Below are positions 5,520 through 32,369 of a stretch of 32,369 nucleotides of DNA, one piece after another. The DNA is from Prochlorococcus sp. AG-402-A08 (GTDB lineage: Bacteria; Cyanobacteriota; Cyanobacteriia; PCC-6307; Cyanobiaceae). The stretch spans positions 1 to 32,369 of the forward strand of contig QCHH01000016.1 of assembly GCA_003279585.1 (NCBI GenBank), in the 5' to 3' direction. Each line of letters begins with the position of its first letter. Position 1 is the first letter of the stretch. The notes beneath the pieces are model-generated. The model was not told the DNA's origin. It ran no database searches and saw only the letters and a list, made by a program, of their open reading frames with translations. Position numbers and translations under genes: made by a program.

Positions 5520-6557
5520 ATGTTTAAACAATTAGCCACAATTAAAAGAAAAAGGATCACTGACAAAAGAAATCCTGAAAAGGGTTTATTTTTAAATCGT
5601 GCAGAAAGGGTGCAACCGTTCTCAAAAGAAATTACAAAAGAAATCTCATCTATTTTTACCAATAGATTAGAGAAATATTATGATATAGAACCATTATATG
5701 CAAAACTATCGACTTATTTAAAAGTTGATAAAGATAATATCTTATTAACTAATGGTGCTGAAGAAGCAATACGTTATATATTTAATATTCATATAAAAGC
5801 AAACGATACTATAATGTTTCCAATTCCAACTTATGGAATGTATCATGTTTATTCAAAAATCTATAATACAAATGTAATTTTATTAACATATAATCAAAAA
5901 TTCAAAATTAACAAACAAGTTTTATATGATAATTTAAGCAAGGTTTCAGTCCTTTTTTTACCAAACCCAAGTCATATAGAGGATATATTTGCTAGCACTG
6001 AAATAATAAATATTTTAACTATTTTGAACAAAAATAACGGGATCTTAGTAATAGATGAAACATATTTTGGATTTGGTTCAGAAACCATGATTGAATTGAT
6101 AAAATCATATAAAAATTTATATGTTATTAGAAGTTTTTCAAAAACATTTGGTCTCCCTTCTATCCGTGTAGGTTGTTTACTTTCAAACTCCGATAATATG
6201 ACAATAATATCAAATTATAGATCAGCATATGAAATCTCCTACCCTAGTTTAAAAATTGCAGAATATTTTTTAGATAATTATAATATTGTCGATGAATATA
6301 TTAATGAATGTATTAAAGGCAGGCAGTTTCTAATGGAAGAAAGTTTAAGACTTAAAATTTTGTTTAATGGATCCCATAATTATTTATTTAATCTAAGAAT
6401 AGAGAATGAAGATACTTGCAATAATATTTGCAATGAATTAGAGAAAAATTATATTTATGTTTCAAATCATAAAAATTATATAGGTATTACAATAGGACCA
6501 GTAAATTACATGAAGAGTTTCATGAAAAAATTCATAGAATGTCTAGAGAAAAAGTAA
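5520..6557 (+). CDS. HisC-like PLP-dependent aminotransferase (fold type I, class I/II)
   Basis: The 345-residue protein has the layout of histidinol-phosphate-type aminotransferases. LLTNGAEEAI (76-85) forms the phosphate-binding turn, PIPTYGMY (101-108) carries the ring-stacking aromatic, Asn149 lies in LPNPSH, Asp179 in VIDETY contacts the pyridine nitrogen, Lys208 in RSFSKTFGLPS is the Schiff-base lysine, and Arg216 follows. It transfers an amino group to or from an aldehyde or ketone. It starts 15 bases after the PhyH-type oxygenase gene, which suggests oxidation followed by transamination of one compound. It is not near other histidine genes, so a role in a specialised sugar or small-molecule pathway is more likely than histidine synthesis. 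CobD-like or aromatic aminotransferase specificity cannot be excluded. Confidence 0.8.
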   Translation: MFKQLATIKRKRITDKRNPEKGLFLNRAERVQPFSKEITKEISSIFTNRLEKYYDIEPLYAKLSTYLKVDKDNILLTNGAEEAIRYIFNIHIKANDTIMFPIPTYGMYHVYSKIYNTNVILLTYNQKFKINKQVLYDNLSKVSVLFLPNPSHIEDIFASTEIINILTILNKNNGILVIDETYFGFGSETMIELIKSYKNLYVIRSFSKTFGLPSIRVGCLLSNSDNMTIISNYRSAYEISYPSLKIAEYFLDNYNIVDEYINECIKGRQFLMEESLRLKILFNGSHNYLFNLRIENEDTCNNICNELEKNYIYVSNHKNYIGITIGPVNYMKSFMKKFIECLEKK

Positions 6558-8203: not shown

Positions 8204-9016
8204 AATAAATGTTTCTTACTTTTTTATTTTCTTTTTTCAATATGATTAAAACTTCAATAAATAATACTACAACTTTCAAATCATTTTGAATCTTTTTTAT
8301 CATATAAGGTTAATTTCTATGGATATTGATGGAGTTCTAACTGATTGAAGTTTTTATTTCGATGATCATGCGAATCAAATCAAACGATTTAATTCTAGAG
8401 ATGGAAAAGGAATAAGACTTTTGCAAAAAATGGTTTTGAAATAGCATTAATTTCTGGATCTAAGAGCAATTCTATAAAAGCAAGAGGATTATCTTTAGAT
8501 ATAAATTATATAATTGTAGGAGTTAGTAATAAGCTAAAACCCTTAAGTGAAATTACACATAAAATTAATATAAAGACTACTAAGCAATTTTCCTAGGTGA
8601 TGAAATAAATGATTTAACTTTTTTGCCAGCAATCACAATGTTCTTATCACTTAAGAATGTACATCCTGCATCTCTAAGGAAAGTAAATTGGTTTTAAAAA
8701 TGCAATAGAGGTAAAGGTTTTATGAGAGAGTTTACTGATTTGTTCTTATTTTCATTAAATATTAATCCATATAAGAGTTTAACAGTTTGGCAACTTGGGT
8801 TTAATTTTACAGAATTAATTATGGGTATCTGTGCCTAAATATATTAATTATTTAATATCAATAATCCTATACCTTAATTAAGGTTCATAAACCTTCTTAG
8901 AGTGTAAAATAGTTTGATGAGCAAAACTCAAAAAGACATAGTAATTGGAGGTGGAGATGTATCCTCAGTGGTTATAGGGAACTCTAATGCTCTTGCTTTT
9001 ATAGGGGGACCATGCG
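7292..9016 (+). repeat. Segmental duplication, copy 2 (TPR/GT - decayed kdsC - kdsA)
   Basis: This is the counterpart of 1-1690, with the same gene order and strand. The limits given are only the part whose partner lies in the window; the duplication may begin further left within the TPR gene. Confidence 0.85.
8242..8776 (+). pseudogene. Decayed kdsC (second copy)
   Basis: Beginning at ATG 8242, this stretch follows the intact kdsC at 945-1508 over its whole length. The HAD motif survives as DIDGVLTD, but the next codon is TGA (8346-8348) where the intact copy has glycine. An earlier in-frame TGA, a one-base deletion near 8430, a further frameshift near 8580 and a TAA near 8695 also break it. 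The C-terminal segment GFMREFTDLFLFSLNINPY is still readable. It is clearly a dead gene, probably since the duplication. Confidence 0.9.
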
Positions 9017-9798
9017 CAATCGAATCATATGACCATACTTTCTTAATGGCTGAATTGATTTCGAAAATATGTGAGAAAAATAATGTTCCATGGATATTTA
9101 AATCTTGCTATGACAAAGACTGCCGTTCGGCACCAGAGAGTTTTCATGGTATTGGATTAGAAAAAGGACTAGAAATTTTAAACAGGATAAGAAAGGAATT
9201 TAACGTCCCAGTCGTTGCAGATTTTTCTGACGCAACTTGGGCTAAGAAAACTGGTGAAGTATGTGACTTAATACAAGTGCCAGCTTATTTATGTCGTCAA
9301 TCCTCAATCTTACGAGCTGCAGCAAGCACTGGAAGGCCAGTTCATTTAAAAAAAGGACAATTCATGAGTCCATGGAATATGAAAAACTCAATTAGAAAAT
9401 TAGAATCTTTTGGTTGTAATCAAATACTAATAACAGATAGAGGAACATTTTTTGGATACAACCATTTGGTTAATGACATGACTTGTTTTCCAATAATGAA
9501 GAAAACTGGTTATCCTGTATGTTTTGATGCCACCCATTCTATCCAGCACCCTACATCTATGGGCAATATATCTGGAGGGCAAAGAGAATATATTCCTTAT
9601 CTAGTAAGATCAGCTGTAGCATGTGGAATAAATGCACTTTTTATGGAAGTTCACAATAATCCTAGCCAAGCTTTTTCTGATCCAAATACAGTATTAGATA
9701 TAAAATATTTGGATCAGATCCTAAATCAAGCGAAGGAGATTCATGAGCTTAGACTAGAGCAATTAAAAATTTATGGAGAAGATAATGTCCATACTTAA
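8917..9798 (+). CDS. kdsA: 3-deoxy-D-manno-octulosonate 8-phosphate synthase (metal-dependent class)
   Basis: KdsA condenses phosphoenolpyruvate with arabinose-5-phosphate to give Kdo-8-phosphate. The 293-residue product has the expected motifs: GGPCAIES with Cys33, VPAYLCRQ (121-128), LKKGQFMSPWN (144-154), ITDRGTFFGYN (172-182), DATHS with His207, FMEVH with Glu244 and SDPNT with Asp255. Cys/His/Glu/Asp is the ligand set of metal-dependent enzymes; the metal-free class has Asn in place of the Cys. The substrate-binding motif usually written KANRSS reads KDCRSA (67-72), and the usual TDVHE is ADFSD (101-105), so the sugar substrate may differ. I start at ATG 8917, because a TTG immediately upstream adds only one residue and the 1591 remnant also begins at this ATG. 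The next gene overlaps its end. Confidence 0.88.
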   Translation: MSKTQKDIVIGGGDVSSVVIGNSNALAFIGGPCAIESYDHTFLMAELISKICEKNNVPWIFKSCYDKDCRSAPESFHGIGLEKGLEILNRIRKEFNVPVVADFSDATWAKKTGEVCDLIQVPAYLCRQSSILRAAASTGRPVHLKKGQFMSPWNMKNSIRKLESFGCNQILITDRGTFFGYNHLVNDMTCFPIMKKTGYPVCFDATHSIQHPTSMGNISGGQREYIPYLVRSAVACGINALFMEVHNNPSQAFSDPNTVLDIKYLDQILNQAKEIHELRLEQLKIYGEDNVHT

Positions 9799-10222
9799 AA
9801 ATAATATTTTAGTAAAAGATGTCATGCTTCAAGTAGGTAATTTTCCTATAGTCCGACCTAGCAATTTAATTATAGAAACAATAGAAGAAATGAATAAATT
9901 TGGAATAGGTATTGCTTGTGTAGTTAATGAAGAAATGATCCTAAAGGCAGTTTTTTGTGATGGAGATATAAGAAGAACTATTATAAGTAATCAAAAATCA
10001 ATCTCAGAGTTTTTTATTGATGATGTCTTAGACCATAGTGTGTTAACTTTTAAATCAGTGAAAGAAGATACAACTTTATTTGATGCAATAAAGTTAATGG
10101 GAACAATAAAAGTTTGGGATCTTCCTATCGTTGATTCAAATTCAGTAATAAAAGGCCTACTTCATCTTCATCCTGCAATTTTATATTTATTAGAATCATC
10201 ATTGAAAAATAAGTTATCTTAA
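9785..10222 (+). CDS. Stand-alone CBS-domain pair, resembling the C-terminal half of arabinose-5-phosphate isomerase
   Basis: The 145-residue protein is made only of two CBS domains. The first runs from VKDVML..GNFPIV through GIACVV to FCDGDIRR, the second from FKSVKEDTTLFDAI to WDLPIVDSNSVIKGLLHLHPAI. This pattern strongly resembles the CBS half of KdsD/KpsF/GutQ, the isomerase that makes the arabinose-5-phosphate used by KdsA, but the N-terminal SIS catalytic domain is absent. It may regulate KdsA or a separate isomerase by sensing a nucleotide or sugar. I choose ATG 9785, preceded by GGAG at suitable spacing; an ATG at 9773 would add four residues. It overlaps the end of kdsA by 14 bases and kdsB follows after 8 bases, so the three are probably translated from one mRNA. 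Confidence 0.8.
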   Translation: MSILKNNILVKDVMLQVGNFPIVRPSNLIIETIEEMNKFGIGIACVVNEEMILKAVFCDGDIRRTIISNQKSISEFFIDDVLDHSVLTFKSVKEDTTLFDAIKLMGTIKVWDLPIVDSNSVIKGLLHLHPAILYLLESSLKNKLS

Positions 10223-10230
10223 TAAATAAA

Positions 10231-11001
10231 ATGAGAATAGTAGCTATAATTCCAGCAAGATTAGCATCCTCAAGATTAAATAGAAAATTACTAATAAAAA
10301 TAAATGGTCTTGAAATTATTGAACATGTTAGAAGAAGAGCAATAATATCAAATGCATTTGAAGCTGTACATGTAGCTACTGGTGACGAAGAAATAGCTGA
10401 CGTTATAAAAGATAATAAAGGTAGTGTAATTCGGACTAAGAAATCCCATGAGAATGGCACTTCACGTGTTGCTGAAGCGATAAAAAGTATCGATGCTACT
10501 CATGTTGTTCTAATTCAAGGGGATGAACCATTAATATTACCCAATGATTTAAAAAAGATGGTAAAATATATTAAAAGATTTCCAGGATATGATACTCTTA
10601 ATGCAATTGCAAAAATAGATAAAGAATCAATTCTAGACGATAATTCTGAAGTTAAATGTGCAATAAATGAAAAAGGTAGAGTTATTTATTGCTTTAGGCG
10701 TTCTCCCTCACATTGTCATATGAATGAGCAGTTTAAATACATTAGAAAGATGCTTGGATTAATAAGTTATAAAAGAGAAACTCTTAATTTGATTGAAAAT
10801 GCAAAGGAATCTACCATACAAAAACTAGAGTCTATTGAACAGCTTTGGTTGATCTCTAATAACTATGATATATACGGAGTTGATATTGAATCTTGTTTAC
10901 CATCAGTAAACACATCAAATGATATTGCTAGAGTATTAAAATACATAGATGACAATCCAGAACAACAAAAAATTATAAAAGAAATAAAAAACTTAGATTA
11001 G
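10231..11001 (+). CDS. kdsB: CMP-Kdo synthetase (3-deoxy-manno-octulosonate cytidylyltransferase)
   Basis: KdsB activates Kdo with CTP to CMP-Kdo, the donor for transfer into lipopolysaccharide or capsule. The 256-residue protein begins with the nucleotide-binding motif IIPARLASSRL (6-16), then HVATGDEEI, the GTSR segment (76-79; usually GTDR) and the cytidylyltransferase box IQGDEP (95-100) with Asp98. Length fits the family (about 250). It is last in the cluster kdsA - CBS - kdsB, 8 bases behind the CBS gene. The Asp-to-Ser change in GTDR and loss of the usual proline-glycine after SRL are mild deviations that could mark a related 3-deoxy-ulosonic acid as substrate. Related CMP-sugar synthetases such as NeuA are less similar. 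Confidence 0.88.
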   Translation: MRIVAIIPARLASSRLNRKLLIKINGLEIIEHVRRRAIISNAFEAVHVATGDEEIADVIKDNKGSVIRTKKSHENGTSRVAEAIKSIDATHVVLIQGDEPLILPNDLKKMVKYIKRFPGYDTLNAIAKIDKESILDDNSEVKCAINEKGRVIYCFRRSPSHCHMNEQFKYIRKMLGLISYKRETLNLIENAKESTIQKLESIEQLWLISNNYDIYGVDIESCLPSVNTSNDIARVLKYIDDNPEQQKIIKEIKNLD

Positions 11002-18420: not shown

Positions 18421-18798
18421 TATTCTTTTTTGCTTATTATAAGTCCAACTAACATTACTGGAAATAATATATTTATTTTTCTAAATTTATTTTTTCTAAA
18501 ATCAAGCAAGCAACAATACACTAACCAACATAAATTAAAAACTGAAGTTCTTCTTATTAAAATGACCTAGACAAACTGCTAATTAGTTAAAAAACTTTGC
18601 CATAACCATAAAGTAATCGAAGCAATAGCTAACAGAATAATTTAATGGCCTTCTAATAAAAGTAATATCTATTTCAATCCAGAAGGAAGAGGATGAACTG
18701 GTAATTCGTATCAACTGATCAAAGTAATCCTGAAAAGAGCTTTCTGCCTAGTTTCTATATCTAATTTTTGCGTATAAAAGTCCTCGAAAGTCCTTTCC
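18421..18798. other. Intergenic, 378 bases
   Basis: No gene is visible. It holds the right member of the direct repeat (18672-18740) and the upstream region of the methyltransferase gene. Confidence 0.5.
18672..18740 (+). repeat. Imperfect direct repeat, right copy
   Basis: This is the counterpart of 17481-17550 in the same orientation, with roughly three quarters of bases shared by eye. It may be a short relic of coding DNA duplicated when the intervening methyltransferase gene arrived. Confidence 0.5.
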
Positions 18799-22736: not shown

Positions 22737-23036
22737 ATAAATTAAAAATGAATTAAAAATCACTAAATTTTTCAAATCTATTTGATAAGTAAATATTCAA
22801 GAATCTAACAAATCTTATTCAAATAACTATAAAAATCATCTATGCAACAGTCTATTAATTAATGAAGAGATACGAATAGAGTAGAACTCGAACTTACAGC
22901 TATAAAACGATTTTGAGTACTTAATTCCGACACTAAATCAACTTTCTTGTTTATTAATATCAACAATTTTGTTTTTATTTTTTTCCAAAAATCTCATTTC
23001 TAATCAACTTAATTGCGTTTGCTTCTAATTAATAAA
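22737..23036. other. Intergenic, 300 bases
   Basis: AT-rich with no gene. A short 6-base inverted repeat (TCAAAT-CT-ATTTGA) near 22769-22784 follows the TPR gene, but it lacks a T-run, so I do not call it a terminator. Confidence 0.45.
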
Positions 23037-23079
23037 TGGAGCCAAGCGGACTCGAACCGCTGACCCCCTGCATGCCATG
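23037..23079 (-). pseudogene. tRNA-Ala(GGC) 3'-half copy
   Basis: It matches the 3' 43 bases of the intact tRNA at 24317-24389 exactly, from the discriminator base through the T-arm and variable loop into the anticodon stem-loop. It ends after CTGCATGCCATG, and the next bases diverge. It cannot make a tRNA and is best read as an attachment-site relic. Confidence 0.9.
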
Positions 23080-23085
23080 GATGTT

Positions 23086-23125
23086 GGCTGTTTTGTGAGA
23101 CTGCATGCGACAGCTACAAAAAGCC
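23086..23125. repeat. Imperfect inverted repeat just inside the 3'-half tRNA
   Basis: GGCTGTTTTGT (23086-23096) is complementary to ACAAAAAGCC (23116-23125) with one extra base. The loop contains another CTGCATGC, the first half of the tRNA core. It may be a recombinase-related structure or a terminator-like hairpin; I cannot decide between them. Confidence 0.4.
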
Positions 23126-23208
23126 CATTGATACTAAAAGGTTTCAGAGAATAGTTTTAATCTGCTATAGCAACTTAGGGCAAGTAATAGCAAAAACTCA
23201 CTAGATTT

Positions 23209-23226
23209 TGCACTAATTTTGCACTA
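23209..23226 (+). repeat. Paired TGCACTAA repeats, left end of element A
   Basis: Two TGCACTAA units 11 bases apart (23209 and 23220). The stop codon of the methyltransferase lies inside the first unit, and its last residues, LVQN, are encoded by the repeat. Confidence 0.7.
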
Positions 23227-24130
23227 AATTGATTTGAGACGGGATTTTATTTGTATTTAAACTTATATATCCAATATATTGATCATTAACAGTTTTACTT
23301 ATTCCCAATCTTTTTAAAAAGTAACCACATGAAATAATACCTGATCTAATTAGTTCTTCTATAGTTTCAAAGCTTGCTATAGAGTCATACATAGCATCAC
23401 TCTCCTCAATATTTTTAAACACATCATCGCACATTATTATCGTATTAGAATTTGCTAATGATACTGAATTTATAATATCGGCGCAGACAATGGGATACCC
23501 ATGTGCTCCGTCGATCCATATTAAATCAAATTGATCTTTAAATTCTTTTCTTATAGTTAATAATAATGAGCTTTCTTCAATGAATTCAATATTAGGTTTA
23601 CTTTTTAAGTATTTATTTCTTACCTTCAGGAATTCTTTCCTTTCTTCAGGTTTTCTACGATTATAAGATTCTTTGAATTTGTCGTCATCAGACTTTAAAT
23701 CAATAGTAAAAACCTTTGAATCTGGAAACAACGTTGCTAATACAAGTGAACTAAAGCCTTTATAAGTTCCTATCTCAAGTATTTTTTTAGGGTTAAATTG
23801 TTTCGCGGCCAAGGAAGCAAACATTATAAAATGTTCTGACATCATTCCTGATTCCTCGTTATATTTGCGGCCGAATAGATCAAGAAAAGTCTCATTTATT
23901 TTTTGCAAACCTGCTGTCCTATCTAAGCCATGAGCTTTGTAAAGTAGTTCTTGTTTAGGTAAATTTTCCTTCCGATAATCTTCTGATGACTTGGTACTAA
24001 TAATAATATTTTCTTTGATTTCTCCTAAAGAAAATGGAACTGTAATTGTTTCTACTCTACTGACTTTCTGTTTCATCATATCTTTCTTAATAGATTTCCC
24101 CATAATTTTATTATCTAATGTAAAAGACAT
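23213..24130 (-). CDS. Class I SAM-dependent methyltransferase with V-P-F leader
   Basis: The 305-residue protein has a SAM-binding motif ILEIGTYKGFSS (117-128), SKVFTIDL (138-145), a catalytic region FDLIWIDGAHGYPIV (201-215) and IIMCDDVFKN (231-240). This order is that of the Methyltransf_24 type, which usually methylates a sugar or small-molecule hydroxyl. Ahead of this fold, residues 27-47 form the leader VETITVPFSLGEIKENIIIST, matching the N-terminus of the TPR glycosyltransferases at 6710, 24666 and 31395 even at DNA level. That a methyltransferase and TPR proteins share it is unusual. The start is ATG at 24130; ATGs at residues 10 and 18 are alternatives that would still keep the leader. 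The gene lies in element A between TGCACTAA pairs. Confidence 0.8.
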   Translation of the reverse strand: MSFTLDNKIMGKSIKKDMMKQKVSRVETITVPFSLGEIKENIIISTKSSEDYRKENLPKQELLYKAHGLDRTAGLQKINETFLDLFGRKYNEESGMMSEHFIMFASLAAKQFNPKKILEIGTYKGFSSLVLATLFPDSKVFTIDLKSDDDKFKESYNRRKPEERKEFLKVRNKYLKSKPNIEFIEESSLLLTIRKEFKDQFDLIWIDGAHGYPIVCADIINSVSLANSNTIIMCDDVFKNIEESDAMYDSIASFETIEELIRSGIISCGYFLKRLGISKTVNDQYIGYISLNTNKIPSQINLVQN

Positions 24131-24225
24131 ATCAATTTTGACCTGTCTAAAGTTAATACTATTTCACTAGGATTGGGCTTAATAAAACAAACAAGATTAG
24201 AATCCATGCAAGTTATCTATCTAAA

Positions 24226-24244
24226 TGCACTAACTTTTGCACTA
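24226..24244 (+). repeat. Paired TGCACTAA repeats, right end of element A
   Basis: Two TGCACTAA units 12 bases apart (24226 and 24238), followed by AAATTGATTT as at 23223. They lie 73 bases from the 3' end of the intact tRNA. The extended similarity to 23209-23250 includes AGACG and GATTT. Confidence 0.7.
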
Positions 24245-24316
24245 AATTGATTTAGACGAGATTTAAGACCATTGAGAATGAAGATCTAATCCCTTCATAA
24301 CAATATTTTTGAAGAA

Positions 24317-24389
24317 TGGAGCCAAGCGGACTCGAACCGCTGACCCCCTGCATGCCATGCAGGTGCTCTACCAACTGAGCTATGGCCCC
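24317..24389 (-). tRNA. tRNA-Ala (anticodon GGC)
   Basis: The 73-base gene on the minus strand folds into a full cloverleaf. The acceptor stem is GGGGCCA/TGGCTCC and includes the G3:U70 wobble pair that identifies alanine tRNAs. The D-arm has GCTC/GAGC, the anticodon stem is CCTGC/GCAGG around loop ATGGCAT (anticodon GGC), and the T-arm is AGCGG/CCGCT around TTCGAGT. The CCA end is not encoded. It decodes GCC and GCU. It is the intact copy between two partial copies of itself. Confidence 0.96.
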
Positions 24390-24460
24390 AAATCGTTTAC
24401 ATAACAGTGATTGCAATCAATCTCAAGCAACATAACCATTATACTTCACCACTCAAATAT

Positions 24461-24485
24461 ACCCAAACACACCCAGATATACCCA
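24461..24485 (+). repeat. Three ACCCA boxes with a 10-base period
   Basis: ACCCA occurs at 24461, 24471 and 24481, exactly one helical turn apart, immediately before the TGCGGTA repeats. The related flank at 31260 keeps only one box. Confidence 0.6.
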
Positions 24486-24488
24486 ATG

Positions 24489-24518
24489 TGCGGTAGATTC
24501 TGCGGTAAATCTGCGGTA
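24489..24518 (+). repeat. TGCGGTA tandem repeats, left end of element B
   Basis: TGCGGTA occurs at 24489, 24501 and 24512, with a variant TGCGGCA at 24568. The spacing of 11-12 bases equals that of the TGCACTAA pairs in element A, while the middle two bases differ (GG instead of AC). Confidence 0.7.
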
Positions 24519-24665
24519 AGCTCTTTGCAATAGGCAACAGGGTTTATGGACAAATGGGTAATAAATCTGCGGCAAAACCTTCGAGAAGATGGTCATATTG
24601 AATTTAATGTTAGAATTGATTCTAGAAATTGGAACTAACCAACTGAACATATAAGGGGAACTTAA

Positions 24666-26912
24666 TTGCCAGAAAAAAATAGCAATCTAAATAAAAATAC
24701 TAACAAAGCAACCACCTTCACAGTACCTTTTTCTTTAGGAAAATTTGAAGAATATTTAGCTATCTCTATTAATAATTCTTCTAAATCTTATAAAGAAGAA
24801 ATAATTAATCAAGCATTTAAGTTTCATTCACAAGGGAATATTAAAGAAGCATCAAAATATTATCGATATTTGATCAAGCGAGGATTAAATGATCACAGAG
24901 TATTCTCTAATTATGGAGTAATATTAAAAGATAATGGAAAATCAGAAGAAGCAGAAATATTAACTCGTAAAGCAATTAAACTTAAACCTGATTTCGCAAA
25001 TGCTTATGCAAATTTAGGACTAATTTTACTAGATCTTGGTAAATCAAAAGAAGCAGAAATTTCAACTCGAAAAGCAATTAAACTTAAACCTGATTTCGCA
25101 AATGCTTATTCTAATCTAGGAAATATATTGTACACTCTTGGAGAATTAAAAGAAGCTGAATTATCTTATAAAAAAGCAATTAAACTTAAACCTAATTTCG
25201 CAAATGCTTATTACAATCTTGCAAACATATTTAGAGATCTTGGAAATCCTAAAGAAGCAGAATTTTTCTATCTAAAAGCGATTGAATATAAACCTGATCA
25301 TGCAAAAGCATATTCAAATCTTGGAAATATACTTAGAGAACTTGGAAATTTAAAAGAAGCAGAATTATCGTATCTAAAAGCGATTAAATATAAACCTGAT
25401 TATACAGATGCTTATTGTAATCTTGGAATATTATCAAAGGATATGGGAAAAAAAGAAGAAGCCAATAAATACAATTCGATTCTATTAGAAAAAGAGCCAA
25501 ATAATATTTTCTTCTTCATTAATGCAAAATTAAACTTCTCTCCAATAATGAGTAATAATAAACAGATAGATATTGAGAGAGAGAAATACCAAAAGGAATT
25601 ATATAAGATAAAAGACAGAAATGAAATGTACTATAAATCAGGGGGGGTATTTAATACAGATATATTTTTTCTAGCTTATCAGAACAGATCAAATGACAAA
25701 CAAATACTAGAGCTACTAAGTAATACAATCTCTAAAATCAAAGGGATAGCAAATAACAACTCTAATCTACAGGAAAGAAAATACTCAAAATTGAAACGCA
25801 AAAGAATAAAAGTTGGAATATGTTCAGAATATCTAAGAGATAACCATACGGTAGGTAAATTATATATAAATGTACTAATTGATTTATTAAAAACTGATAT
25901 TGACATGAGAATTTATATACCTCCAGAATTAAGAAAATATAGCGGACCAAGTATAATCAGAAATTCATTTAATTCAATAATAGATTTACCTGAGTCACCA
26001 ATTGATGCTCAGGAAATAATATTAAATGACAATTTAGATATTCTATTCTATCCAGATATTGGAATGTCTAGTTATACCTATATTCTTGCATTATCGAAGC
26101 TAGCAACAATACAAGTTAATAGTTTAGGCCATGCAAATACATCAGGTATAAATAATATTGATTATTTTATAACTTCAGATATTGAACCAACAGAATCAGA
26201 TAATAATTACACAGAGGATTTAGTTCGATTTCCCAGGCTACCATTCAACTACTCAGTACCAAAAATAAACAAGTCAAGATTATCAACTGAAACAAAAATA
26301 AACTTTGAAAATAATTTCAATATTGGTTTATTACAATCGTTGTATAAATTACACCCTGATTATGACAAAATACTGGAATCAATATTATTAGAGATTAAAG
26401 ATTCTCGCTTAATTCTTATAAAAGATAAATATGATTATAGAACTAAAATATTAAAAGACAGATGGGAAAAGAGAAGCGAAGTATTACTTGAAAAGTCTAT
26501 TTTCCTAAATAGAATGTCTAGTGATGACTACATGAATACATCTAAAAGTTGTCATATAATGTTAGATCCATTCTATTTTGGTAGTGGAAATACTTTTTAC
26601 GAATCAATGGCTTTTGGAATACCATTTATTACTTATCCAAATAATCAAAAAACAAAAATAGCCTCAGCAGGATACAAACAAATGAAACTTAAAAATCCTC
26701 CTATTGCAACCTCCCCCAATGATTATATAAGATGGTGTAAATTATACTCAAATAACAGATCCTTACTTATACAAACAAAGAATGAGATAATTGAAAAAGC
26801 AAACAAATATTTATTTAATGATAGAGAAATATACAAAGAATATTACCGTTTCTTTTGCGAAGCAACAAAGAACTCAAGAAAGAAAAAAAAAGAAGCTTAT
26901 TTACATGAATAA
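24666..26912 (+). CDS. TPR / GT41-like glycosyltransferase with V-P-F leader
   Basis: The 748-residue protein starts with TTG, supported by an AAGGGGA ribosome binding site 6 bases upstream. The leader TTFTVPFSLGKFEEYLAISI spans residues 16-36, about seven TPR repeats 45-280, and a GT41-like catalytic region about 380-740. The latter has KVGICSEYLRDNHTVGKLY, DILFYPDIGMSSYTYILAL, VNSLGHANTSGINNIDYFI, SLYKLHPDYD with the conserved lysine, and LDPFYFGSGNTFYESMAFGIPFITYP. It is the closest relative of the 20349 gene. It is the first gene of element B, about 280 bases from the tRNA. A run of seven G lies at 25641-25647 in the coding sequence. It probably transfers a sugar to protein or glycan; its substrate is unknown. 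Confidence 0.83.
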   Translation: MPEKNSNLNKNTNKATTFTVPFSLGKFEEYLAISINNSSKSYKEEIINQAFKFHSQGNIKEASKYYRYLIKRGLNDHRVFSNYGVILKDNGKSEEAEILTRKAIKLKPDFANAYANLGLILLDLGKSKEAEISTRKAIKLKPDFANAYSNLGNILYTLGELKEAELSYKKAIKLKPNFANAYYNLANIFRDLGNPKEAEFFYLKAIEYKPDHAKAYSNLGNILRELGNLKEAELSYLKAIKYKPDYTDAYCNLGILSKDMGKKEEANKYNSILLEKEPNNIFFFINAKLNFSPIMSNNKQIDIEREKYQKELYKIKDRNEMYYKSGGVFNTDIFFLAYQNRSNDKQILELLSNTISKIKGIANNNSNLQERKYSKLKRKRIKVGICSEYLRDNHTVGKLYINVLIDLLKTDIDMRIYIPPELRKYSGPSIIRNSFNSIIDLPESPIDAQEIILNDNLDILFYPDIGMSSYTYILALSKLATIQVNSLGHANTSGINNIDYFITSDIEPTESDNNYTEDLVRFPRLPFNYSVPKINKSRLSTETKINFENNFNIGLLQSLYKLHPDYDKILESILLEIKDSRLILIKDKYDYRTKILKDRWEKRSEVLLEKSIFLNRMSSDDYMNTSKSCHIMLDPFYFGSGNTFYESMAFGIPFITYPNNQKTKIASAGYKQMKLKNPPIATSPNDYIRWCKLYSNNRSLLIQTKNEIIEKANKYLFNDREIYKEYYRFFCEATKNSRKKKKEAYLHE
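24946..25440 (+). repeat. Near-identical 102-base tandem repeats inside the TPR gene
   Basis: The TPR-coding units repeat every 102 bases (34 codons). A 36-base segment starting at 24972 recurs unchanged at 25074 and with one substitution at 25176. Identity at synonymous positions points to recent unit duplication. Confidence 0.85.
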
Positions 26913-26936
26913 GAAAAACATATATTTGTAATTAAG

Positions 26937-27938
26937 TTACTCTTTAAATTCATTCTTTAATATATTATAGGTCTTAAGCAGACCATCTTCAATAGATATT
27001 TTTGGATAATACAGCAACTCATTTTTAATCTTTTGAAGTGAAGGGATCCTTCTATTTGGCTCATCTTGTGGATAAGAATCGGGATATGCTACAAGCTTAT
27101 AATTTACTTTTTCTCCAATAACAGAACTAAAAACCTTCACCAAGTCCAATGCTGATAACTCAGGATAATCATTACCTATATTATATGTCTCACCACTACG
27201 CCCATTCTTAATTACTTTACAGATAGCATCTATGGCATCTGTAAAATAGCAGTATGTACGAGTCTGTCTACCAGTAGAGAATAATTTAACAGGTCGGTTA
27301 TTAATATAATTATAAATCATACTCGGTATCATTCTAAAATCTGTTTTACACATTCCTGGACCATAAATATTAAATGGTCTTATAATATTAGTATGTACAT
27401 TATAGTATTTGTTGTAAACATAACATAAAGTCTCGCCTAATCTTTTGCTCTCATCATAACAAGATCTGGGGCCTTGACATGAAACATTGCCCTTAAATTC
27501 TTCAGATGTAGGTATAAAAGAGCTTGGGGGATCTCCGTATATTTCAGATGAAGAGAAAAAAATAAATTTACTCCCCCATTCCTTGCTAACATCTAGCAAG
27601 GAGCGGGTTACCAACGTATGCACATCAATAGTTTTTAGAGGTAATTTCATATAATGAACTGGACTGGCCAGACCAGCCATATGTATTATCAAATCACATC
27701 TATCTAAGCTTTCAAATGGGTAACCTATTAAATCTTTTTCTATAAGTTTAACTCTTTTATTTCTAATTTTTTCAACAGAAGTAATTCCATTATCAATACC
27801 AACTATAGAAAAAGATTGTTTATCTTCTTGATCAAAAACCTTAATTAATGCCTCAACTAAATGTCGGCCAAGGAAACCATTTACACCAGTAATTAAAATT
27901 CTTTTCAAAAGGTTAGATGACAAAAAACGAATCGCCAA
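26937..27938 (-). CDS. Extended SDR, UDP-glucuronate decarboxylase (UDP-xylose synthase)-like
   Basis: NAD-dependent enzymes of this group convert UDP-glucuronate to UDP-xylose or related sugars. The 333-residue protein shows the Rossmann motif GVNGFLG (18-24), HMAGLASPVHYMKLPLKTI (86-104), FFSSSEIYGDP (127-137), GNVSCQGPRSCYDESKR (150-166) with the catalytic Tyr161 and Lys165, PFNIYGPGM and QTRTYCYFTDAIDAI. GNV..GPRSCYDE is typical of UXS enzymes. It ends 24 bases from the TPR gene (convergent). The start is uncertain: the only candidates are TTG codons, here 27938 or 27908 (giving a start at the usual KRILITG). The product is probably a pentose-type UDP sugar, though a dTDP-sugar dehydratase cannot be ruled out. 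Confidence 0.8.
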   Translation of the reverse strand: MAIRFLSSNLLKRILITGVNGFLGRHLVEALIKVFDQEDKQSFSIVGIDNGITSVEKIRNKRVKLIEKDLIGYPFESLDRCDLIIHMAGLASPVHYMKLPLKTIDVHTLVTRSLLDVSKEWGSKFIFFSSSEIYGDPPSSFIPTSEEFKGNVSCQGPRSCYDESKRLGETLCYVYNKYYNVHTNIIRPFNIYGPGMCKTDFRMIPSMIYNYINNRPVKLFSTGRQTRTYCYFTDAIDAICKVIKNGRSGETYNIGNDYPELSALDLVKVFSSVIGEKVNYKLVAYPDSYPQDEPNRRIPSLQKIKNELLYYPKISIEDGLLKTYNILKNEFKE

Positions 27939-28061
27939 AACAAATAATTGATAAAAACTATTTTAAATGAGTTCTTAAAAAGGTATGCTGGCTTATATTG
28001 TATTTATGATATAGTAAAAAAAGGTTTTTATTATTATAGAGTAAAATCTCTTATTATTTAT

Positions 28062-29282
28062 ATGAAAAATTTTCGTACAATTAATAGCTGCGAAGTCTGT
28101 GGAAATAATCAGTTAGAGCCTGTTCTTGATTTAGGTTCACATATATTATGCGACAACTTAAAAAAGATTGGTGACGAATCAAAATCGGAAAAGTATCCTA
28201 TAAAGGTATTGTTTTGTAAAAGATGTATTACGGCTCATCAATCATGTCAGATTGATAAAAAACTTCTTTTCCCTAAAACATATCATTATAGAGCGAGATT
28301 TACAAAAGATGTAGTAAAAGGTCTTAATGATTTAGTAAACTCAATTGAAGATATTTTAGGGAGTATTAAGAATAAAACAGTTATAGATATAGGATGTAAT
28401 GACGGAACCCTTCTTGATATATTTTCAGAGAAAGGAGCAATAACATATGGAATAGAACCTACTGATGCTTATAAAGATGCCATAGGTAAAAAACATATTA
28501 TATATCATGAATATTTTGATAAAAATATTGTTTCTAAAATCAAAGATAAAAACATTATGCCTGATATTATAACTTTTACAAATGTATTTGCACATATAGA
28601 GGATTTAGAAAACCTTATTAATAACTTAAAAGATATTATGCATTCAAAAACTCTTATATGTATTGAAAATCATTATCTAGGATCTATATTAAGCAAAAAT
28701 CAGTTTGATACTTTTTACCATGAACATCCAAGAACTTACTCACTAAGATCTTTTGAATTCATATCAAAAAAACTTAATAGTAATATAATTAATACCACTT
28801 TTCCCAAGAGATATGGTGGAAATATAAGAGTGATTATGGCTCCAATCAATTACTCAGAAAATTTTACTAATAGAAATAGATTTGAGGAGATAAAAGCCGA
28901 AGAAGAAGACTTCTATAATAATTTCCAATCATTAAGTATATTTTTCAATGATTGGAAATATTCAAAGCGCAAGGAAATTCTAGATTTAGTTTCTAAATAT
29001 GGTCCTATACCTGCAAAAGCATTCCCTGGAAGAGCGGCAATACTAATTGAACTTCTAAAATTAAGTAGCAGGGAAATAGAATGTGTTTACGAAAAACCTG
29101 GTTCTAAAAAGATAGGCCATTTTGTTCCAGCAACTAACATACCTATCGTCTCAGCCCAAAAGCTATTTGAGTTAGAAAAAAAGCCTGAAGTAATTCTTAA
29201 TTTAGCTTGGCACATTCCAGATGAAATAAAAGGTTTTCTGAAGATAAATAATGTTCATAGTAAAATTATCAATATTATATGA
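28062..29282 (+). CDS. Sugar C-methyltransferase (NovU/TylCIII type)
   Basis: These enzymes add a methyl group to a carbon of a keto-deoxysugar. The 406-residue protein has an N-terminal zinc site with Cys10/Cys13 and Cys52/Cys55, a SAM-binding motif VIDIGCNDGTLLD (107-119), FTNVFAHIED, a catalytic FYHEHPRTYSL and a C-terminal nucleotide-binding half with PAKAFPGRAAIL and NLAWHIPDEI. I start at ATG 28062, because family proteins begin close to the first Cys pair. A TTG at 27948 would add 38 residues and leave only 9 bases to the divergent SDR gene. The following gene overlaps by four bases (ATGA), so the two are coupled. Together they point to a methyl-branched sugar. Confidence 0.85.
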   Translation: MKNFRTINSCEVCGNNQLEPVLDLGSHILCDNLKKIGDESKSEKYPIKVLFCKRCITAHQSCQIDKKLLFPKTYHYRARFTKDVVKGLNDLVNSIEDILGSIKNKTVIDIGCNDGTLLDIFSEKGAITYGIEPTDAYKDAIGKKHIIYHEYFDKNIVSKIKDKNIMPDIITFTNVFAHIEDLENLINNLKDIMHSKTLICIENHYLGSILSKNQFDTFYHEHPRTYSLRSFEFISKKLNSNIINTTFPKRYGGNIRVIMAPINYSENFTNRNRFEEIKAEEEDFYNNFQSLSIFFNDWKYSKRKEILDLVSKYGPIPAKAFPGRAAILIELLKLSSREIECVYEKPGSKKIGHFVPATNIPIVSAQKLFELEKKPEVILNLAWHIPDEIKGFLKINNVHSKIINII

Positions 29283-30226
29283 TTCATCAAAATATGAATC
29301 ATGGTCATAAAATAAGCGCCAAATTATATGGGAATGGCTTTGCCTTAAAAGTATATTTACCTGCCCTTATTAGACTAGGAATAAAAAGAATATTAATCGA
29401 CAAAGATCAGAGTTTAGATTTATATAAAGCAAACATTTTAGATAAATTCAAGGAATATATTATAGATATTAATAAGAACGATTTTAAAGAGGAAATCTTT
29501 GATTATACAATTCTTGCAGTCTCGCCTAAGAAACAATACGACTTACTCTTAAAAAATAACTTTTTTAAAAATACTAACACTCTTATCTTAGAAAAACCTA
29601 TAGCAACATCTCCAAGCAAAGCTTTTGAAATCCATAAAAAACTTGAAGATATGAAAATTAAGTATTTAATTAATTATTCTTTTAGATACGCATCATGGTA
29701 TGAAAATCTTTCGGAAATAATCAAAACATTACCACAAGATGTTGAGCTGACTTTTATTTGGGAATTCATGGCAAGACATTTTGTTAATAATAGAAATACA
29801 TGGAAAAGATTTCATTCTGAAGGTGGAGCAGCGATAAGATTCTATGGAATTCATTTGATTGCCATACTTTCAGATATTGGATATTTTAAAGTTTTAAAAT
29901 CAAATAATTCTTCTAAACCATCCTCAGATTTAAGTTCATTTTCATGTTCATTTGAATCAACACACAATCTTCCCAAATGCAATATATTAATAAATTCAAA
30001 CTCATTAGTAAACAATTTTAGTTGTTTTTACATTAAGCGTAATAAAAAGATTTCATTACTAAAAACAAAGGAACCTCTCCCAAAAAAAAATCAATTTGCA
30101 TTAGAAGATCCTAGAATAGATCTTACAAAAAGATTTATTCAGGAACAAAATTTTAATTACAATAATTTTAATGTAATTAAGTTGTGGGAAGAGATAGAAG
30201 ATAAAATTGAAGATAACTATTCCTAA
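29279..30226 (+). CDS. Gfo/Idh/MocA-family oxidoreductase
   Basis: The 315-residue protein has the N-terminal NAD(P) region YGNGFALKVYLPAL (17-30), the EKPIA motif (105-109) characteristic of this family, and GGAAIRFYGIHLIAILSDIG near the middle, corresponding to the D-x-G-x-H-x-x-D region. The Rossmann motif has GNGFAL in place of the full GxGxxG. It oxidises or reduces a sugar or sugar nucleotide; partners of C-methyltransferases often include 3- or 4-ketoreductases of this type. Start and stop codons of the two genes overlap as ATGA, so translation is coupled with the C-methyltransferase. It is the last plus-strand gene of element B's biosynthetic part. Exact substrate unknown. Confidence 0.78.
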   Translation: MIHQNMNHGHKISAKLYGNGFALKVYLPALIRLGIKRILIDKDQSLDLYKANILDKFKEYIIDINKNDFKEEIFDYTILAVSPKKQYDLLLKNNFFKNTNTLILEKPIATSPSKAFEIHKKLEDMKIKYLINYSFRYASWYENLSEIIKTLPQDVELTFIWEFMARHFVNNRNTWKRFHSEGGAAIRFYGIHLIAILSDIGYFKVLKSNNSSKPSSDLSSFSCSFESTHNLPKCNILINSNSLVNNFSCFYIKRNKKISLLKTKEPLPKKNQFALEDPRIDLTKRFIQEQNFNYNNFNVIKLWEEIEDKIEDNYS

Positions 30227-30272
30227 TAATAAATTAATTAAGAACTAATTTTATTTTTTATTGGTTTGAGAA

Positions 30273-30287
30273 TTCTACATAGTAGAA
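30273..30287. terminator. Hairpin after the Gfo/Idh gene, weak terminator candidate
   Basis: Inverted repeat TTCTAC-ATA-GTAGAA 47 bases after the stop at 30226. No T-run follows, so intrinsic termination is doubtful. Confidence 0.25.
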
Positions 30288-30426
30288 GTTACATTCTATT
30301 AGACGATATAGCTAACATATAATCTAACCATTGAATATATTTGCTTAGCGCAGCAGCAACTTTCTATAATGATTTTATATGAGTCTTTTTTGGATTGCCT
30401 TTTTTATATTTAAGAGTGATTAATCC

Positions 30427-30633
30427 TTATTTGCGCCGCTCAATATTGATCTCTTCAAAGTCTTGAACAATTAAATCCATTGCTTTGGCTGTAATTCTTC
30501 GAGCTTGTCTTCTGCTTAATTGATACTCTTCGGTCACTCGGGTCGTTACCACTGTGCAACTATGACCTTGAGCAAGCAAGTCAGCAGCAAAACCTGCTCT
30601 TAATTCCATCTCTTGTTTATTAGCTTTTTTCAT
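30427..30633 (-). CDS. Small basic protein with HTH-like segment
   Basis: The 68-residue product (from ATG 30633; a TTG at 30645 would add four residues) is rich in Arg and Ala. The stretch VTEEYQLSRRQARRITAKAM looks like a helix-turn-helix: an amphipathic helix, a turn at LS and a second basic helix. It may bind DNA, but I recognise no family. It overlaps by 14 bases with the open frame ending at 30620, whose EYEK codons contain its ATG, suggesting coupled translation. The region is clearly richer in G and C (near half in parts) than the surrounding genes. Its place close to the right end of element B suggests a regulator or accessory factor of the element rather than glycan synthesis. Confidence 0.6.
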   Translation of the reverse strand: MKKANKQEMELRAGFAADLLAQGHSCTVVTTRVTEEYQLSRRQARRITAKAMDLIVQDFEEINIERRK

Positions 30634-30862
30634 ATTCCAGCTCAATGCAATGTAGATTCAATTCCCTCTGGAGCATGTGCAAACACAATGCCAACTCAGG
30701 AACCAAAGAAGGCATTAGGTGCCAAGCTTGATTCCTTTCTATTGTTGAAAAGGCGGAAGTCATTGCTTCTGCGACAGTTAAAAAATCAGAGTGAATGACT
30801 TTAGTCATTTGAGATTTTCTAGGTGTTGCTATTTGGCGTGAGCTTATAAATTTATTAATCAT
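30620..30862 (-). CDS. Small protein upstream of the HTH-like gene
   Basis: From ATG 30862 the product is 80 residues. A shorter version from ATG 30808 would start MTKVIHSDFL and be 62 residues; the N-terminal 18 residues look less conserved in character, so the shorter start is quite possible. The segment EAMTSAFSTIERNQAWHL is helical, followed by LVPELALCLHMLQREL. I recognise no family. Reasons to accept it are the higher GC, protein-like composition and the 14-base overlap with the next gene's start. Both genes could act together in element maintenance, but this is inference from position. Confidence 0.45.
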   Translation of the reverse strand: MINKFISSRQIATPRKSQMTKVIHSDFLTVAEAMTSAFSTIERNQAWHLMPSLVPELALCLHMLQRELNLHCIELEYEKS

Positions 30863-31068
30863 ATAAGCAACCAAAGTAATAACAAAAGTAGCCTAAAAAC
30901 ATATTACTTTCAATTAAAGTACACCTTTTACTTGGGTTAGTATTTATGATTTAGGCTCCCTTTGGTAGTCTTTTCTATATTATTTAGTGGTTAGTTATTA
31001 AAGCCAAAAACTACTATAATCAAAGATATAGACTGAACAAACTTACATAAAAAGTTTTTTTAGAGTTA

Positions 31069-31088
31069 TGCGGTAAATTGTGCGGTAA
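31069..31088 (+). repeat. Paired TGCGGTAA repeats, right end of element B
   Basis: TGCGGTAA occurs at 31069 and 31081, 12 bases apart, 61 bases before the tRNA 5'-half. It is the same unit as at 24489-24518, at the opposite end of the element. Confidence 0.7.
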
Positions 31089-31147
31089 TTATCTATTACT
31101 TAAAGAGAAAACTTAGTGATTGCAATGACTTTCAAAGGTTTGATATT

Positions 31148-31189
31148 CTGCATGCCATGCAGGTGCTCTACCAGCTGAGCTATGGCCCC
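31148..31189 (-). pseudogene. tRNA-Ala(GGC) 5'-half copy
   Basis: It matches the 5' 42 bases of the intact tRNA with one substitution in the D-loop. Similarity begins exactly at the core CTGCATGCCATGCAG, and the T-arm and 3' acceptor are missing. The flank to its right also matches the flank of the intact tRNA for over 150 bases. Confidence 0.9.
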
Positions 31190-31365
31190 AAATCGTTGAC
31201 ATGAAAGTGATTGCAATAACTCTCAAGCAACACAAGCATTATACGTCACGACTCAAATATACCCAGACATAGCAATTTGCGGTAGAATTTACGGTAATAT
31301 CTTTGCAATAGGCGACAAGGTTTATGGACAAATTGGTAATAAATCTTCGCCCAAACCTTAAAGAG
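31190..31365 (+). repeat. Duplicated tRNA upstream flank
   Basis: It resembles 24390-24590, including CTCAAGCAACA, CTCAAATATACCCA, a TGCGGTA unit at 31278 followed by a degenerate ACGGTAA, TTTGCAATAGGC and TTTATGGACAAAT. In both places the flank leads into a leader-bearing TPR gene, so flank and gene were duplicated together. Confidence 0.8.
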
Positions 31366-31394
31366 GAAGAAATCAAACACAAGCAGGATTTAAT

Positions 31395-32369
31395 GTGAAA
31401 ACATACCCAGTTCCATTTGACATAGCAGAATTAAATGAAAATATTAATGTTAGTATAGATACTCCTTCTAACCCTTCTAAAGAACAAATAATAAATCAAG
31501 CATTTAAATTTCATTCAAAAGGAAATATCCAAAAAGCAGCACAATATTATCAACAATTAATAAATAAAGGGTACAAAGATTACAGGGTTTTTTCTAATTA
31601 TGGATTAATTCTACAAAATATTAGAAAACCAAAAGATGCAGAAATATTCACTCGCAAAGCAATTGAAATTAATCCTAATTTCGCAAATGCATATTCCAAT
31701 CTAGGAATCATTTTGAGAGATCTTGGTAAATTACAAGAAGCTGAATTATCACTACGCAAAGCAATTCAACTTAATCCTAATTTCGAAATGGCATATTCCA
31801 ATCTGGGAAATGTATTGAGAGATCTTGGAAAAAAGCAAGAAGCTGAATTATTACTACAAAAAGCCATTGAACTCAAACCTGATTACTCAGAGGCTCATGC
31901 CAATCTCGGAAATGTATTGAGAGATCTTGGTAAATTACAAGAAGCTGAATTTTCACTACGTAAAGCTATTCAACTTAATCCTAATTTTGCAAATGCTTAT
32001 TGCAATCTAGGAATCATATTGAAAGAGCTTGGAAACTTAAAAGAAGCAGAATTATCTACTCGTAAAGCAATTGAAATCAAACCTAATTACGCAGAAGCCA
32101 ATTCTAATCTAGCAATCATATTGAAAGATCTTGGGGAATTTGGTGATGCTATAAAACACTTCCAACAAGCTCTAAGATTAAACAATCAATTATCGACGGC
32201 GAAAGCTGGTTTAATTAAAACCAAAGGTAAAATATGTGATTGGAGTGATCAAGAGACACAAACTATTTGGCTAAAGAATCTTGGCATTGAAGGATCTTCT
32301 GTTACACCACTTGGTTTACTTTATTACGAAGATAATCCTTTAAATCATTTAAAAAGATCTAAAAGATAT
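31395..32369 (+). CDS. TPR / GT41-type glycosyltransferase with V-P-F leader, N-terminal part (runs off window)
   Basis: The frame is open for all 325 codons from GTG 31395 to the window end; the ATG two bases upstream is out of frame and meets a stop at once. An AGCAGGA ribosome binding site precedes the GTG. The leader KTYPVPFDIAELNENINVSI covers residues 2-21, then about eight TPR repeats follow, again with close 102-base DNA repetition. The last residues, WLKNLGIEGSSVTPL and LNHLKRSKRY, match the linker just before the GT41 domain of the protein at 15150-17204, so a catalytic domain probably lies beyond the window. It stands about 205 bases from the tRNA 5'-half, as the 24666 gene stands from the intact tRNA. 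Confidence 0.82.
   Translation, partial: MKTYPVPFDIAELNENINVSIDTPSNPSKEQIINQAFKFHSKGNIQKAAQYYQQLINKGYKDYRVFSNYGLILQNIRKPKDAEIFTRKAIEINPNFANAYSNLGIILRDLGKLQEAELSLRKAIQLNPNFEMAYSNLGNVLRDLGKKQEAELLLQKAIELKPDYSEAHANLGNVLRDLGKLQEAEFSLRKAIQLNPNFANAYCNLGIILKELGNLKEAELSTRKAIEIKPNYAEANSNLAIILKDLGEFGDAIKHFQQALRLNNQLSTAKAGLIKTKGKICDWSDQETQTIWLKNLGIEGSSVTPLGLLYYEDNPLNHLKRSKRY

Follow-up and report, generated by a model that had tools for sequence, protein, structure and literature searches.

The tRNA-Ala(GGC) gene of a Prochlorococcus genomic island very probably serves tyrosine-integrase elements as an integration hub on both of its sides

The window analysed here is a stretch of 32,369 nucleotides (nt) from Prochlorococcus sp. 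AG-402-A08, namely contig C16 of an assembly of 1.59 Mb in 69 contigs that is 86% complete. Its sole tRNA gene, tRNA-Ala(GGC), is located at 24317–24389 on the minus strand (ARAGORN; Rfam). Comparison of the sequences around this gene indicated that it is very probably an integration hub at which tyrosine-integrase elements enter from either side and recombine in the anticodon stem-loop. An element of the 3' type, such as element A of the window, would supply a new 3' half of the tRNA and push the old one aside, and one of the 5' type, such as element B, would do likewise for the 5' half, supplying the tRNA upstream region with it. Every insertion would place the new unit beside the tRNA, resulting in the tandem accretion of cargo. 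The sites on which this reading depends were as follows.

24317–24389, minus strand: intact tRNA-Ala(GGC), target gene and A/B junction (ARAGORN; Rfam RF00005, 67.1 bits).
23037–23079, minus strand: 3'-half copy (tRNA nt 31–73), distal boundary of element A (100%, 43 nt, E 2e-16, own-genome search).
31148–31189, minus strand: 5'-half copy (tRNA nt 1–42), the distal limit of element B and the proximal limit of the unit that follows (98%, 42 nt, E 2e-14, own-genome search).
24347–24363, no strand assigned: core, the anticodon stem-loop, a 17-nt palindrome except for its centre base (CTGCATGCCATGCAG plus one base per side; sequence reading).

The similarity of both half copies to tRNA-Ala(GGC) is far above chance. 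The first-pass annotation of the window had described an intact tRNA and two halves meeting in the anticodon stem-loop, and this was borne out, as the 3' half and the 5' half have only tRNA nt 31–42 in common. CTGCATGCCATGCAG occupies 24348–24362 in the anticodon stem-loop, and the palindrome interrupted by its central base was likewise recovered. The overlap at the core is probably 7 nt, corresponding to the anticodon loop. The window displayed the arrangement of a tRNA-targeted tyrosine-integrase element, with a displaced fragment at the far end and the intact tRNA at the near end. The units bounded by these sites were the following (aa, amino acids; G033 and G036, two Prochlorococcus relatives).

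23080–24316, no strand assigned: element A, 3' type, about 1.28 kb, with a single cargo gene (arm repeats at both ends; end similarities in relatives).
24390–31147, no strand assigned: element B, 5' type, 6.8 kb including the core (only its two ends common with the outer element of G033).
24390–24600, no strand assigned: proximal end module of B, with the tRNA upstream region, arms and integrase start (94.8%, 211 nt, against G033).
24546–24638, plus strand: integrase start stub of 30 codons and then a stop, reading MDKWVINLRQNLREDGHIEFNVRIDSRNWN (first 26 aa 77% to the 423-aa integrase of G036; profile E 0.02).
30380–31147, no strand assigned: distal end module of B (89.9%, 769 nt, against G033; 89.4%, 715 nt, against AG-402-G10).
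31190–31398, plus strand: proximal end of a third unit, with arms at 31278–31296 and a second integrase stub at 31324–31398 (alignments of ends).

At least three units lie at tRNA-Ala(GGC) in the window. The stub of the third reads MDKLVINLRPNLKEEEIKHKQDLM, and its cargo begins with a TPR gene at 31395 that runs off the contig. The two accreted elements proposed earlier, A (1.28 kb) and B (6.8 kb), stood as elements; their number was too low, and B was of the reversed, 5'-half type. The statement that the window held no recombinase was correct for whole genes, in place of which two integrase-start stubs were found (24546–24638 and 31324–31398). Two further 5' pieces were detected by the own-genome search, at 6455–6501 of contig C36 (tRNA nt 1–44, 87%) and at 24438–24473 of contig C17 (tRNA nt 3–38, 86%). 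The latter sits approximately 1.35 kb past lexA, the ancestral upstream neighbour of tRNA-Ala, and C17, C36 and the window may be parts of one array.

The similarity of the 5' copy extended upstream past the tRNA (24348–24469 versus 31148–31269, 91%; 24508–24589 versus 31286–31367, 84%), and related TPR genes, approximately 75% alike, followed both copies (24348 and 31148). Both features would agree with a plain segmental duplication, in which a block of 5' half, upstream region and TPR gene was duplicated in tandem, the 3' half being left by a separate truncation. TPR genes of one cluster were also abundant, with 58 open reading frames (ORFs) in 22 of 38 regions that carry an intact tRNA-Ala gene, which are the window and 37 relatives. 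The comparison with other genomes made such an origin very improbable. The module stopped at the same point in other genomes with unrelated DNA beyond it, an identical breakpoint was seen in independent elements on both sides, and an integrase occupied the same place in complete relatives. No collinear block copied whole was found: B and the outer G033 unit shared the 211 nt of the proximal end and the 769 nt of the distal end and otherwise nothing (DNA, E 1e-5), and the arylsulfotransferase and sulfotransferase carried by the G033 unit were unrelated to the B cargo. As B and the G033 element have just their ends in common, the halves bound mobile elements rather than a duplicated segment, and the duplication that the first-pass annotation had set against its own proposal was not found.

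The sharing of ends was not limited to this pair. Element B had 145 and 715 nt at its ends in common with AG-402-G10, together with TPR-gene similarity. The upstream region in the window was near-identical to that of G036 through the arms and integrase start, over approximately 220 nt, and similarity then dropped sharply. In the GGCGGGAT-repeat family, five relatives matched the integrase-bearing element of locus L054 over 140–180 nt at its end and then diverged, and in a third family, TGCGCCAT, longer integrase pseudogenes were retained.

Half copies were then counted in the 38 regions at thresholds of at least 33 nt and E ≤0.01, which left out L050 (35 nt, 86%) among others. All 18 half copies were on the matching side, in the orientation of the tRNA and with the break inside the anticodon stem-loop. 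Seven were 5' halves, in 5 regions, and eleven were 3' halves, in 10 regions, these counts being lower bounds because many contigs were short. The 5' halves stopped at nt 39–42 and the 3' halves started at nt 27–37, so that all breakpoints were within nt 27–42. Both kinds co-occurred in two regions, the window and L069.

The gene order around the site was ribD-ftsH-argF-lexA, tRNA-Ala, a 130-aa gene and a DUF2214 gene, the names ribD, ftsH, argF and lexA having been assigned by reading the translations and not by family search. Sites empty on one side were found in relatives. In four regions belonging to other genera of the family, the end of lexA was only 66 (L040), 69 (L078), 72 (L070) and 94 nt (L075) from the tRNA, corresponding to an empty 5' side. 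In four regions of the same genus as the window, the distance from tRNA nt 1 to the 3' neighbour was 135 (L043), 164 (L059), 214 (L052) and 236 nt (L058), corresponding to an empty 3' side. The remaining regions had kilobases between tRNA-Ala and the flank genes. The comparison of presence and absence suggested by the first-pass annotation did reveal variation.

Complete relatives of the 5' type were present. Whole integrases were located directly upstream of the tRNA, in divergent orientation, in G036 (L045, 423 aa), G010 (L054, 450 aa) and G007 (L063). In the complete 5'-type unit of G007, approximately 12.2 kb, the intact tRNA was followed by arms, an open integrase frame of 433 aa, cargo, a second set of arms matching the first and a 5' half (nt 1–44, 95%); TGGCGCA repeats were present at either end. 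A further proximal end came after this unit, and its integrase, which was broken, had 91% identity to the G036 enzyme. The family integrases matched phrog_1 at 8e-13 and 1e-13. An integrase gene was thus present in complete relatives and missing from A and B, and as the latter have nothing of it beyond stubs, they were classed as derivatives rather than full members. They may be deletion derivatives retaining the end modules only, moved, if at all, by a same-family integrase acting in trans; the packages seem to have lost the inserting enzyme and kept its likely binding sites. The earlier description of A and B as dependent cargo units fits.

The same complete units bear on another origin for B, as part of a 3'-type element later inverted or rearranged, which would yield a 5' half with no true 5'-half integration. 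The nearly palindromic core, flank genes that switched side in G039 and G007, and the two opposed tRNA-Ala genes of G011 would all favour it. We nevertheless consider it hardly credible, as G007 has a complete 5'-type element in which an integrase and matching arms accompany a 5' half of the same orientation, and seven of seven scored 5' halves had the orientation of the tRNA. In G039, the 130-aa and DUF2214 genes were on the 5' side of the tRNA, their usual place being 3', and in G007 they were on the 5' side and inverted (L065, L141). In G011 (L067), ARAGORN found tRNA-Ala(GGC) genes at 9193–9267 (plus strand) and 18695–18769 (minus strand), opposed and approximately 9.5 kb apart, so that the intervening DNA could invert.

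In an integrase tree of 17 rows, the 5' type was not separated from the 3' type and came together as a single group in 6% of the 200 bootstrap trees. The G036 integrase was 41–42% identical to the nearest named integrases of Synechococcus, which lie on the 3' side, whereas those of Prochlorococcus are on the 5' side. Synechococcus AG-670-B23 carried two tandem 3'-type elements at the same tRNA, with a distal integrase in one and an integrase directly after the 3' half in the other. In 17 of 20 further integrase loci fetched, a 3' half of tRNA-Pro was found. One 5' half of tRNA-Pro(TGG) was observed in G003 (L166 16232–16273; nt 1–42, 100%), approximately 1 kb upstream of the intact gene, which is adjoined by TTTGTCACTCG tandem repeats. 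As tRNA-Pro(TGG) is less palindromic, this case weakens the view that carrying a 5' half depends on a palindromic core; a near-palindromic core could still help 5'-half use, though it is no strict requirement. The integrase of G022 (L173 8300–8600) adjoins an apparent 3' half that belongs to a different tRNA and, judged by eye, looks Thr-like.

The ends of the elements also carried short tandem repeats, which in the window were located as follows.

23209–23227, plus strand: distal arm-like repeats of A, TGCACTAA x2 (tandem-repeat test; sequence reading).
24226–24245, plus strand: proximal arm-like repeats of A, TGCACTAA x2 (tandem-repeat test; sequence reading).
24489–24518, plus strand: proximal arm-like repeats of B, TGCGGTA x3 (alignment of ends; tandem-repeat test).
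31069–31088, plus strand: distal arm-like repeats of B, TGCGGTAA x2 (tandem-repeat test).

The repeat differed from family to family. In the arm test, both ends of an element had to carry the same tandemly repeated 7-mer at a spacing of 10–14. The 20 elements tested were pairs picked for two usable boundaries, and all 20 were kept; half copies with no usable pair stood outside the test, such as L063, L067, L076, L077, L108, L109 and L146. A common tandem repeat was found at the own ends of 10 of the 20 elements and in 19 of 380 mismatched pairs, several of the 19 being members of the same family. Permutation gave a mean of 1.44 and a maximum of 8, with none of 20,000 reaching 10 or more. These repeats are likely integrase arm sites and would be bound by the N-terminal part of the enzyme.

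Element A was connected to other elements by its ends as well. Its proximal end recurred in 7 relatives (80–85%), where it adjoined the intact tRNA. When its distal end was aligned with the corresponding end of the G033 3'-type element (L069), the score was 50, against a mean of 18 and a standard deviation of 2.5 in shuffles, of which 0 of 500 scored as high; blastn at 1e-4 gave no match for this end. The G033 element has VapE, a capsid/protease gene (PF05065) and, adjoining its 3' half, an integrase, and the distal end of A appears to resemble that of this capsid- and VapE-bearing satellite. No integrase was seen in element A, not even a stub.

In the upstream ends of B-type elements, CATTATAC (reverse complement GTATAATG) was invariant, being present in 10 of the 10 that were aligned. 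This box is -10-like and lies approximately 48 nt ahead of the tRNA, and the upstream region of B may now drive tRNA-Ala(GGC). In bacterial tRNAs hit by elements, the original promoter is nearly always kept and 5'-half cases are rare, according to the relevant passages of PMC8371274.

Several observations weigh against the use of the tRNA as a hub. An extra copy in L067 (nt 19–70) had the opposite orientation and was scored as other, being part of the second ARAGORN tRNA. Matching arms were absent in 10 of the 20 elements by the test used; some of these had lost part of an end, and two-letter repeats were removed by the filter. A consensus scan of 24300–24700 found no sigma-70 promoter, so that conservation and position are the grounds for the supply of a promoter by B. 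The PF00589 matches of the family integrases were below the Pfam cut-off, and viral contigs gave no match in the two scans made, one with the integrase alignment and one with an exact 20-base pattern of the B distal end. Of the loci fetched, none but the window itself matched the outer flank of element A (22738–23036), and no empty site with the exact flanks of the window was found. The own assembly, 86% complete, contained no intact family integrase.

This last result would also agree with A and B being dead relics, that is, ancient integrase insertions in decay, with the island now varying mainly through homologous recombination between the repeated ends and TPR genes. The truncated small helix-turn-helix gene in B and the many integrase pseudogenes upstream of tRNA-Ala in relatives point in the same direction, but the ends of B were 90–95% identical to those of another genome with wholly different cargo, and close relatives had intact integrases. 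We regard decay as a serious possibility, to which somewhat under half of our confidence is given. A bolder version of the hub can be offered only tentatively and is rather doubtful. In it, the tRNA would be a two-sided loading dock, whose core, palindromic but for one base, lets integrases seat either half; 5'-type elements would take over the tRNA promoter, and many integrase-less cargo units with family arm codes would be inserted and released in trans by a matching incoming integrase, a reliance on one integrase likened to that of integron cassettes.

The cargo of the two elements in the window was as follows.

23213–24130, minus strand: A cargo, methyltransferase of 305 aa (PF13578 1.6e-12, PF01596 3.8e-8).
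24666–26912, plus strand: B cargo, TPR protein with a GT41-like part (TPR models; PF13844 4.7e-7).
26937–27938, minus strand: B cargo, NAD-dependent epimerase (PF01370 5.2e-48).
27948–29282, plus strand: B cargo, S-adenosylmethionine (SAM) methyltransferase (PF08421/PF08484).
29279–30226, plus strand: B cargo, possible GFO/IDH/MocA-like oxidoreductase (PF01408 E 0.0068, weak, below its cut-off).
30427–30645, minus strand: truncated small helix-turn-helix protein (93% to a 120-aa protein of AG-402-B05).

Packaging or capsid genes were found in neither A nor B. The truncated helix-turn-helix protein of B gave weak fold matches (best PDB E 0.61; small terminases E 0.9–1.0), and its best viral match was unnamed (E 8e-4); the evidence for a TerS-like protein is weak. 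The A methyltransferase (23213–24130) and the TPR proteins (24666–26912) had a common N-terminal leader, ..TVPFSLG.IKENI.., before unrelated domains. A loose pattern of this leader matched 27 of the 58 TPR-cluster ORFs, and outside the cluster the A methyltransferase was the sole apparent true match. Elsewhere in the window, genes at 8914–11001 were read by eye as synthesis of a sugar of the 3-deoxy-D-manno-octulosonic acid (KDO) type. These genes suggest a larger surface-polysaccharide island of which the tRNA is a part.

The nearest known kind of element is the tycheposon, reportedly described from Prochlorococcus by Hackl and co-workers in Cell in 2023. Its hallmark is a deep-branching tyrosine recombinase. 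The elements described here are inserted at a tRNA gene of Prochlorococcus or its neighbours, as tycheposons are. Tycheposons share the host, the tRNA sites, the tyrosine recombinase and the occurrence of cargo and satellite forms, as presented in part of PMC10872708, and one relative here (L069) carries VapE and a capsid gene; in contrast, A and B have no recombinase except stubs. PMC6563490 cites Zhao and Williams 2002 for reversed elements, which recombine with the 5' portion of a tRNA gene. Such 5'-part elements (passages of PMC6563490; pTN3-like, PMC8371274) likewise bring a 5' half and replace the tRNA upstream region, but those passages present single cases, whereas 5' and 3' types, tandem arrays and integrase-less derivatives occur here on one tRNA. 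The 3' types including A are like ordinary tRNA islands of the anticodon-loop class of Williams 2002, as outlined in PMC8371274, with a core made up of the 7-bp anticodon loop plus stem. In the islands covered by that section one side is used and the original promoter is kept with few exceptions, whereas both sides are used here. The tRNA-Met island of Prochlorococcus, with five pseudo-tRNA-Met and repeats attributed in part of PMC2784084 to phage P-SS2 attachment and insertion sequences, also has repeated tRNA fragments beside a tRNA in a genomic island. Element ends and arms are not defined in that part of the account but are defined at tRNA-Ala(GGC).

If this reading is true, it would show how, in genomic islands of a phototroph that is among the most abundant, small surface-chemistry packages of glycosyltransferase-like, methyltransferase and sulfotransferase genes accrete and swap with no integrase of their own. 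The question of polarity, why some integrases carry the 5' half, would be testable with a single core sequence. The arm repeats would constitute a sequence code for predicting the matching helper integrases, and the expression of an essential tRNA would depend on a mobile element.

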